Source: an uncultured Alistipes sp. (GTDB taxonomy: Bacteria; Bacteroidota; Bacteroidia; Bacteroidales; Rikenellaceae). Taken from it: DNA of 64,000 nt. Below, piece by piece: positions 17,486-20,561 of the stretch. Position numbers and translations under genes: made by a program. How positions within the stretch are numbered: the first letter of the stretch is position 1; each line of letters begins with the position of its first letter. The stretch lies in assembly GCA_944321945.1 (NCBI GenBank), contig CALUNE010000003.1, forward strand, positions 210,612 to 274,611, written 5' to 3'. The notes beneath the pieces are model-generated. The model did no database searches, was not told where the DNA came from, and was given only the letters and a program-made list of their open reading frames with translations.

Positions 17486-20467
17486 ATGACCAAAAGCCTG
17501 GAACAGTACATGCCCGACGGGAGCAAACTCCCCTACCGCTTCATGAAATACCGCATCCACAAGATCCTGCTCGTCTGCTGCAGCTACGACGGGTACATTC
17601 TCGAGGAGGACGGGCATATCGAATCCCAGATCAACCAGGAATACATCGACCTCAACATGTCGAATCCGCCGTCGCTCACGCGCGTCAGCTCGACGGCCGA
17701 GGCGCTCGAGGCGCTCGGCGAGGACGACTCCTACGACTTCATCCTGACGATGTACAACGTCGGCGAACCCGACGTCTTCACCTTCGCCCGCATCGTCAAG
17801 GAGCGCCACCCGCAGATCCCCGTGGCGCTGCTCACCTCCTTCTCGAAGGACATCTACCGCCGCATCGAGGAGCAGGACCATTCGGGCCTGGACTACATCT
17901 TCTCCTGGCACGGAAACACCGACCTGATCATCGGTATCATCAAGCTCATCGAGGACAAGATGAATGCCGACGAGGATATTCTCGAGGGGGGCGTGCAGGC
18001 CATCCTGCTGGTCGAGGACTCGATCCGCTTCTACTCGACCTACCTGCCCGAGCTCTACAAGCTGATCCTGCTCCAGAACACCGAATTTCTCAAGGATGCC
18101 TTCAACGAACAGCAGCAGGTTCTCCGCAAGCGGGCCCGCCCGAAGATCCTGCTGGCCCGCAGCTACGACGAGGCCACGGAACTCTACGACCGCTACCGGC
18201 GGAATCTGCTCGGCGTGATCTCCGACGTGGGCTTCGTCCTCCACCGCAACGACCCCTCGGAGAGCGAAAAACTCGACGCCGGCATCGATCTCTGCCGCCG
18301 CATCAAGCAGGACAATCCGCTGATGCCCGTGCTGCTGCAGTCGTCGCAGACCTCCTTCGCCGATCAGGCCCGCGCCCTGGGAGCCGGATTCCTGGCCAAG
18401 AACTCCAAGACGCTGCTCTCCGAACTGAGCGACTACATCGCCAAGGAGTTCGCCTTCGGCGACTTCGTCTTCGAGGATCCCGAGACTGGCGCCGAAATCG
18501 GCCGCGCCAAGGACCTCACGCAGATGCAGCACATGATCGCCACCATCCCCGACGAGGCCTTCGAGTACCACACCTCGCAGAACCACCTCTCCAAGTGGTT
18601 GTACTCGCGCGGCTTGTTCCCGCTGGCCGCCTCGATCCGCCAGTACAACAAGAGCCACTTCTCGTCGGTCGAGGAGCACCGCCGCGTGCTCGTCAACCTG
18701 ATCCGCGACTACCGCACGCTGCTCGGACAGGGCGTCGTGGCGCGTTTCGACCCCGAGACCTACTCCGATGCCGTGGCCTTCGCCCGCATCGGCGAGGGTT
18801 CGCTCGGCGGAAAGGCCCGCGGTCTGGCCTTCATGAACTCGATGCTCACCAAGCACCGCCAATACGACAAGCACGAAAACGTCCGCATCATGATCCCCCG
18901 CTCGGTGGTCATCGCCACGGAGTATTTCGACGAGTTCATCCGCCGCAACGACCTGCAGTACATCATCTCGCAGGACTTCTCCGACGAGGAGATCCTCTCG
19001 GAATTCGTCACCTCGACCGTCCCGCAGCGCCTGCAGGAGGAGCTGAAGGCCTACATCCGCACGGTCCGCACACCGCTGGCCATCCGCTCCTCGTCGAAAC
19101 TCGAGGATTCGCACTACCAGCCCTTCGCCGGCATCTACTCGACCTACATGATCCCCTACACGCCCAACGAGGATCAGATGCTGCGTCTGGTGCTGCGCGC
19201 CGTCAAGAGCGTCTACGCCTCGGTCTACTTCGCCGCTTCGCGGGCCTACATCGCCTCGTCGCAGAACCTGATCTCCGAGGAGAAGATGGCCGTCATCATC
19301 CAGGAGGTCTGCGGTACGGAGCAGAACGGGCTGTGGTTCCCGACCTGCTCGGGCGTCGCCCGCTCGATCAACTACTACCCGATCGGCGACGAACAACCCT
19401 CGGACGGCGTCTGCAACGTAGCCATGGGACTGGGCAAACTCGTCGTCGACGGCGGCCGCACGCTCCGCTTCTCGCCCCGCTATCCGCAGAAGGTCCTCCA
19501 GACATCGACCCCCGAACTGGCGCTGAGCGACACCCAGACCGAAGTCCTCGCCCTGAGCCTCCGCCCCGAAGAGTTCCGCACGTCGATCGACGACGCGGTG
19601 AATCTGCACCGCCTCTCGCTGCGAGACATCGCCGACTACCGCAACGCCCGCTACGTCTGCTCGGTCTGGGACCGCGAGAACGAACGCATCTCGGACAGCC
19701 CGTTCGACCGCGGACGCAAGGTCATCACCTTCAACAACATTCTCAAGTACAACACCTTCCCGCTGGCCGAGATCGTCTCGGACATCCTGCGCATGGGGGC
19801 CGAGGAGATGCGCTGCCCCGTCGAGGTGGAGTTCGCCGTCAACATGGACGTCGCCCCGGGCCAGCAGCAGATCTTCAACCTGCTGCAGATCCGCCCGATC
19901 ATCGACAACCAGGACAACCGCGCCATCGACTGGTCGAAGGAGGATCCCGCCCGCGCACTGATCTACGGCGAACAGGCCCTCGGCATCGGCATGATGTCCG
20001 ATCTGGCCGACATCATCTACGTGAAGAGCGAAGCGTTCGATTCGCTCTCGACCGAGAAGATCGCCGACGAACTGCTGGCGATGAACAACCGCATGCGCGA
20101 CGAAAAACGCTCCTATATTCTTGTGGGACCCGGACGCTGGGGATCGTCGGATCCGTTCCTGGGCGTGCCCGTGAAGTGGAACCACATCTCCGAGGCGAAG
20201 GTCATCGTCGAGTGCGGCATCGAGAAGTTCGAGGTCGAACCCTCGCAGGGCACCCACTTCTTCCAGAACGTCACCTCACTGGGCGTGGGCTATCTGACCA
20301 TCAGCCCCTACCGCGGCGAGGGGATCTTCCGCGAAGCGTATCTCGATTCGCTGCCGGCCTGCCACGAAGGAACCTATCTGCGTCAGGTGCGCTTCGAACA
20401 CCCGCTGTGGGTCTGCATCGACGGACGCTCGAACCGGGGCATGATCCGCGAAACCAGCAAAGACTAA
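17486..20467 (+). CDS. Receiver-like and PPDK-type ATP-binding domain fusion protein
   Basis: A 993-residue cytoplasmic protein. Residues about 24-155 form a receiver-like fold without the phospho-acceptor (YDFILTMYN, Met/Tyr where Asp is expected). Residues about 168-320 form a second receiver-like fold that keeps the acidic pair in LLVEDS (Glu177-Asp178), a candidate acceptor Asp247 in GVISDVGF and Lys305 in FLAKNSK. Residues about 430-860 match the PEP/pyruvate-binding (PPDK_N) ATP-grasp domain: GSLGGKARGLAF (Lys443), LAIRSSSKLEDS and FAGIYSTY. The swivelling phosphohistidine domain and the C-terminal PEP barrel of PEP synthase are absent. The last 130 residues contain LVGPGRWGSSDP. Function is unknown; a signal-dependent phosphotransfer or ATP-sensing role is inference. 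It stands alone on its transcript. Confidence 0.8.
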   Translation: MTKSLEQYMPDGSKLPYRFMKYRIHKILLVCCSYDGYILEEDGHIESQINQEYIDLNMSNPPSLTRVSSTAEALEALGEDDSYDFILTMYNVGEPDVFTFARIVKERHPQIPVALLTSFSKDIYRRIEEQDHSGLDYIFSWHGNTDLIIGIIKLIEDKMNADEDILEGGVQAILLVEDSIRFYSTYLPELYKLILLQNTEFLKDAFNEQQQVLRKRARPKILLARSYDEATELYDRYRRNLLGVISDVGFVLHRNDPSESEKLDAGIDLCRRIKQDNPLMPVLLQSSQTSFADQARALGAGFLAKNSKTLLSELSDYIAKEFAFGDFVFEDPETGAEIGRAKDLTQMQHMIATIPDEAFEYHTSQNHLSKWLYSRGLFPLAASIRQYNKSHFSSVEEHRRVLVNLIRDYRTLLGQGVVARFDPETYSDAVAFARIGEGSLGGKARGLAFMNSMLTKHRQYDKHENVRIMIPRSVVIATEYFDEFIRRNDLQYIISQDFSDEEILSEFVTSTVPQRLQEELKAYIRTVRTPLAIRSSSKLEDSHYQPFAGIYSTYMIPYTPNEDQMLRLVLRAVKSVYASVYFAASRAYIASSQNLISEEKMAVIIQEVCGTEQNGLWFPTCSGVARSINYYPIGDEQPSDGVCNVAMGLGKLVVDGGRTLRFSPRYPQKVLQTSTPELALSDTQTEVLALSLRPEEFRTSIDDAVNLHRLSLRDIADYRNARYVCSVWDRENERISDSPFDRGRKVITFNNILKYNTFPLAEIVSDILRMGAEEMRCPVEVEFAVNMDVAPGQQQIFNLLQIRPIIDNQDNRAIDWSKEDPARALIYGEQALGIGMMSDLADIIYVKSEAFDSLSTEKIADELLAMNNRMRDEKRSYILVGPGRWGSSDPFLGVPVKWNHISEAKVIVECGIEKFEVEPSQGTHFFQNVTSLGVGYLTISPYRGEGIFREAYLDSLPACHEGTYLRQVRFEHPLWVCIDGRSNRGMIRETSKD

Positions 20468-20517
20468 AATTTTCCGAAAAATTCCCGGAAAAAGTTACAA
20501 TCCCTAAGAAATATTGC

Positions 20518-20525
20518 TATATTTG
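20518..20525 (+). promoter_or_regulatory. Bacteroidota -7 box for gdhA
   Basis: TATATTTG matches TAnnTTTG, 36 nt before the gdhA ATG, in an AT-rich 94-nt gap. No good -33 TTTG is visible. Confidence 0.6.
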
Positions 20526-20561
20526 TAACAGAAGAATACCAAACCTAAAAACTTCAAAGCT

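Follow-up and report, generated by a model that had tools for sequence, protein, structure and literature searches.

Phosphoenolpyruvate (PEP) synthase and pyruvate phosphate dikinase (PPDK) share one domain order, in which a PPDK_N ATP-grasp domain is followed by a swivelling domain and a PEP barrel. Rifampin phosphotransferase RPH, which has no receivers, is a PPDK-like engine turned to another acceptor. Signalling on glutamate dehydrogenase (GDH) and 2-oxoglutarate metabolism is known from actinobacteria, where GarA/OdhI work with PknG. Here we describe a 993-residue protein encoded beside a GDH gene in a 64,000-nucleotide stretch (hereafter the window) from an uncultured Alistipes sp. (assembly GCA_944321945.1, contig CALUNE010000003.1, positions 210,612 to 274,611). 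Like PEP synthase and PPDK, it has an ATP-grasp domain with conserved residues, and what is probably a swivel-like domain stands directly behind it; unlike them, it has no PEP/pyruvate barrel, its swivel-like sequence lies beyond the reach of PF00391, and two receivers stand in front. With RPH it shares a PPDK-like engine that would serve another acceptor, but with the NCBIfam model RIF_Ptrans_rph it reaches 24.3 bits where 999 are required. As in the GarA/OdhI–PknG system, signalling would be aimed at GDH and 2-oxoglutarate metabolism, whereas that system uses an FHA protein and a Ser/Thr kinase, and Pfam finds neither domain in the window protein. A preliminary description of this DNA likened the logic of the protein to PEP-synthase regulation. 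The PPDK/PEPS regulatory protein, DUF299, likewise concerns regulation through a PPDK-type enzyme; the window protein has no DUF299 match in Pfam. In a 2015 paper, aspartate-less receivers (ALR) were highly associated with enzymatic domains including PPDKs (PMC4395418), and the domain combination is therefore not new. The accessible text of that paper gives these proteins no function, GDH link or C-terminal swivel-like domain.

The gene family is linked to GDH far above chance. In the window, the GDH gene starts 94 bases 3' of the family gene on the same strand. When neighbours at 94 loci were clustered, GDH was the commonest (42 loci; runner-up 10), and tblastn found GDH at 84 of 153 family loci, a redundant set in which many loci have flanks of only 1.5 kb. 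For genome searches the order was taken, from the closest named relatives, as Bacteroidales and sampled at one genome per genus (60 genomes, 55 with the family, 52 of those with PF00208). A PF00208 gene lies within 6 kb of the family gene in 19 of the 60, where 0.59 would be expected. Outside the order, the same distance holds for 17 of 19 genomes (that of the window excluded) and 29 of 36 family places, against an expectation of 0.44; both expectations assume uniform placement and ignore kinship. As a control, 64 PF00391 places were taken from 41 genomes in a wider draw across the phylum; none had a listed GDH within 6 kb, the list omitting its weakest matches and the genomes overlapping only partly with family-bearing ones. 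At the closer distance of 1.5 kb, GDH accompanies 33 of 80 loci from named genomes (30 of the 65 whose flanks both extend ~1.5 kb) and, among phylum loci, 16/19 full-length members, 4/6 members of 580 residues and 3/4 larger ones.

The arrangement is not fixed. GDH may stand downstream, upstream on the same strand, divergently or on both sides, and among the GDHs so linked are subfamilies ~30% identical to each other, so the association can hardly reflect one inherited operon or block. Genomes G024 and G039 each have two paralogues beside different GDHs on different contigs. Both Parabacteroides distasonis and Phocaeicola massiliensis have one GDH gene divergent to the family gene and another at a distance of ~3.5-4 kb; a Prevotella record has no GDH within 7 kb of the family gene. 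GDH occurs in 109 of the 118 genomes of the wider draw, whereas the family occurs in 20 (that of the window included). Since GDH is common without the family, the family protein would be a regulator rather than a requirement. The neighbouring GDH, which the preliminary description did not mention, is probably the partner of the protein.

The AlphaFold2 model shows receiver folds, as had been proposed. The first receiver-like domain is aspartate-less, with Met89 at the phospho-acceptor position and Trp141 at the lysine position (equivalences assigned by eye), which agrees with the earlier statement that it lacks the acceptor. Only the second combines a phospho-acceptor Asp with an acidic pair, Ser/Thr and Lys; E177, D247, S286 and K305 are kept in all 87 aligned rows, bearing out the Glu-Asp pair, Asp247 and Lys305 named before. 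The ATP-grasp domain matches PF01326 (PPDK_N) at E 1.4e-38, with 133.4 bits against a cut-off of 27, and the top structural match of this region is RPH. Its catalytic-type residues, among them the Lys443 and RSSS-LED already pointed out, are conserved among homologues and, with His924 further on, invariant in the alignment rows examined. Neither of the two outcomes that would have spoken against the earlier reading, a fold lacking receivers and variable ATP-grasp residues, was therefore seen. Beyond PPDK_N and a weak receiver match, Pfam lists nothing for the protein. The PEP/pyruvate-binding barrel, rightly described as missing, gives no Pfam match, and the chain stops after the swivel-like domain.

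The phosphohistidine domain had also been reported missing. By sequence this holds, with no PF00391 match listed by Pfam up to E 1, but the chain ends in what is probably a diverged swivelling phosphohistidine domain with invariant His924. Direct comparisons of this domain gave little. Against 28 swivel domains (from 30 loci, L162 and L167 being dropped for want of the motif), hhalign aligned only the last strand, without significance (E 0.09), and Foldseek with the domain alone returned nothing at E 0.001, the best hit having E 0.12 and unrelated folds ranking top. Profile comparison of residues 425-993 with 20 PPDKs aligned no more than short segments (E 0.092 and 0.0079), a weak test because even the plainly related ATP-grasp domains barely aligned. 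With two PEP synthases the same region reached E 1.6e-11 and 2.7e-15, in an alignment that stops at residue 850, short of His924.

We propose, with a probability of about 0.5, that the protein is a receiver-gated phosphotransferase of the PPDK/PEP-synthase type in which the metabolite (PEP/pyruvate) domain has been lost, and that its role is to regulate GDH and the glutamate/2-oxoglutarate node. The ATP-grasp domain would phosphorylate His924 on the swivel-like domain. A kinase would phosphorylate Asp247 of receiver 2, which together with the aspartate-less receiver 1 would gate the swing of the swivel-like domain. A protein, GDH being the likeliest candidate, would then accept the phosphoryl group, with a change in its activity. 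The scheme builds on the predicted domain order, the invariant catalytic-type residues and the genomic linkage; from these we infer the phosphorylation of His924, the gating by the receivers and the role of GDH as acceptor rather than mere binding partner. The 2-oxoacid:ferredoxin oxidoreductase genes near some family loci and the PAS domain of one long paralogue also speak for it. Architecture and conservation support the earlier idea of a signal-gated phosphotransfer enzyme; an effect on GDH activity is suggested by gene neighbourhood. Such an enzyme may act as a switch for nitrogen flow in and out of glutamate, and, if real, would exemplify a metabolic dikinase turning into a signalling enzyme.

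Several observations weigh against this proposal. No GDH lies within 6 kb of the family gene in 36 of the 55 family-bearing genomes of the order, and three of the 55 show no PF00208 at all. Nor do the GDHs carry an evident phospho-site signature: when 87 GDH open reading frames from family loci, not all direct neighbours, were set against 14 taken from family-free genomes, the 85%/40% filter left no position. A relaxed comparison (76 versus 14, each >45% identical to the window GDH) left four differing positions, such as Tyr363 (58/76, with Phe in 18/76) against Phe in 14/14, a difference that kinship could explain.

The absence of such a signature sits well with a stoichiometric, nucleotide-sensing regulator, in which the ATP-grasp domain and receivers sense energy and signal state and GDH is bound without being phosphorylated. 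This would account for the GDH linkage equally well; we nevertheless think it rather unlikely, as the invariant ATP-grasp catalytic-type residues and His924 exceed what binding alone needs. A single polypeptide holds an invariant His of the donor type together with an invariant Asp of the acceptor type, which would also fit a closed phosphorelay from ATP to His924 to Asp247, within one chain or a dimer, after which the phosphorylated receiver signals to GDH or another target. Against this stand the receiver-less 580-residue members, which are likewise GDH-linked, and no PPDK-type His is known to us as a phosphoryl donor for a receiver, so we consider a relay of this kind improbable. The chance is similarly slim that the protein is a metabolic kinase or synthase whose phosphorylated substrate is some small molecule in the glutamate/2-oxoglutarate pathway, with GDH as a mere pathway neighbour. 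The linkage to 2-oxoacid oxidoreductase as well as GDH genes speaks for such an enzyme, and to our knowledge the characterised enzymes with this ATP-grasp domain use small molecules or glucans, but the Pfam result reveals no third, substrate-binding domain, and the two receivers, with a PAS domain in one long paralogue, indicate regulation. The preliminary description's suggestion of a kinase for a stand-alone phosphohistidine protein, which the lack of PF00391 in the window protein had favoured, is very improbable, as a swivel-like domain with an invariant His is probably already present in cis and the only PF00391 found in the genome of the window (77.65% complete) lies in a 926-residue frame with its other PPDK_N, apparently an ordinary PPDK.

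Returning to the receiver-gated phosphotransferase, a wider claim can be made tentatively, and we hold it with less confidence than the proposal itself. The family might be protein kinases of a new class. Their engine, of the dikinase type (an ATP-grasp and a swivelling phosphohistidine domain), would have been freed of its metabolite domain and placed under receiver control; it would phosphorylate GDH, switch nitrogen assimilation in much of Bacteroidota and possibly be the reported trans-acting factor of Bacteroides GDH. Earlier studies reportedly dealt with the reversible inactivation of B. fragilis GDH. In Bacteroides, GDH is one route for ammonia into glutamate, and B. fragilis has two GDHs, of which the NAD(P)H-dependent one is inhibited at high organic nitrogen (PMC4539542, as far as its accessible text goes). 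The same text refers to Baggio and Morrison 1996, a study that by its title describes trans-acting gene(s) situated downstream of gdhA in B. thetaiotaomicron; the family gene is possibly such a gene. The available part of PMC12304020 does not touch on how Bacteroides controls GDH. With a large and conserved phosphotransferase candidate that bears receivers and is encoded next to GDH genes, the question of trans-acting GDH control becomes directly testable.

The protein had been called uncharacterised, and the literature searched, mostly titles and the starts of abstracts with most subscription journals outside it, offers no function or GDH link for the family, though the domain combination had already been noticed. 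Overall, the earlier observation stands in part and its interpretation is partly supported; with a probable phosphohistidine domain in cis and GDH as the probable partner, the locus is more interesting than first stated.

Table 1. Features of the family gene, its product and the adjoining GDH gene (window coordinates).
Feature	Position	Strand	Basis or remarks
Receiver-receiver-ATP-grasp-swivel-like protein, 993 aa	17486..20467	+	Open reading frame and translation
Receiver-like domain 1, aa 23-161	17552..17968	+	AlphaFold2 and VIA, conservation
Receiver domain 2, aa 170-324	17993..18457	+	Glu177/Asp178, Asp247 (codon 18224-18226), Ser286, Lys305
Helical linker, aa 344-414	18515..18727	+	DSSP on predicted model
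PPDK-type ATP-grasp domain, aa 430-806	18773..19903	+	Lys443 (codon 18812-18814), RSSS-LED
Probable diverged swivelling phosphohistidine-like domain, aa 826-988	19961..20449	+	His924 (codon 20255-20257) in PSQGTHFFQN
GTTACA-N24-TGTAAC inverted repeat containing TATATTTG	20494..20529	+	Promoter/operator candidate of GDH gene
GDH gene, 445 aa	20562..21899	+	NF010633, 880.6 bits vs cut-off 743; candidate target

Because TATATTTG sits ahead of the window GDH gene inside an inverted repeat (Table 1), this gene may be served by a promoter of its own; judged from the sequence, co-transcription with the family gene is also possible. No such repeat arose in 100 shuffles. Among ten stretches looked at, TATATTTG is kept in four (L074-L077) and not found in six, of which L089 carries TACTTTTG and L098 stops short of its GDH start.

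The 153 family loci include 14 with subunits of 2-oxoacid:ferredoxin oxidoreductase encoded upstream and on the same strand. In 13 of them these genes adjoin the family frame or lie within ~0.5 kb of it, in L134 the gap is ~3 kb, and at six of the 14 loci a GDH follows downstream. In L144 the beta subunit stays below its cut-off and the alpha subunit exceeds the NCBIfam one for a general 2-oxoacid enzyme; 2-oxoglutarate is the presumed substrate. Loci L116, L120, L138 and L144 show an operon-like run of oxidoreductase alpha and beta, a long paralogue and a ~1000-residue paralogue, with a GDH ~1-1.3 kb beyond the run in L120 and L144. A sensor histidine kinase gene lies ~5.5 kb upstream in P. 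distasonis.

The closest named relatives are Alistipes proteins (94-88% identical), and a single copy was found in the 2.23 Mb genome of the window. Within the order, 172 of 198 genomes, this one included, have a family match (E 1e-10). In many genomes a remoter paralogue (30-38% identical) occurs in addition or instead, its frames being mostly 1150-1560 residues long. The long paralogues L189-L194 span 1262-1524 residues, some with repeated N-terminal stretches (RLKELAAINQT-like). In a scan of four long paralogues, one of them covered through residues 1-510, these stretches match no Pfam model, and a PAS domain exceeds its cut-off in one (L194); we read the repeats as sensor-like. In some relatives the linker region gives PF19027 (DUF5752) matches below cut-off. 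The family gene of G042 (C14:2994-5874), a genome without a PF00208 match, is broken over two reading frames, by decay or assembly error.

A scan of viral contigs confirmed no relative. Phage records gave three family matches, including near full-length copies in MT835667.1 and MT835811.1 ('Bacteriophage sp.'), probably bacterial contigs. Plasmid searches returned 26 records with the window protein, of which 23, from other genera, match weakly and over part of the length, and only three Bacteroidota records with the 580- and 1063-residue members. Defence-gene models matched neither the window protein nor a long paralogue; a 1060-residue relative matched nucleotidyltransferase-type models.

Outside the order, the family comprises 580-residue members without receivers and larger, distant members of 778-1063 residues, two of the four scanned having a C-terminal nucleotidyltransferase domain. 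In L066 (6808-11723) and L060 (8913-13834), a receiver-less 580-residue member and a member of 1060-1063 residues, with PPDK_N, the same C-terminal domain and a C-terminal nucleotidyltransferase domain, are encoded by genes overlapping by 4 bases, and these two-gene units lie near a GDH of another subfamily.
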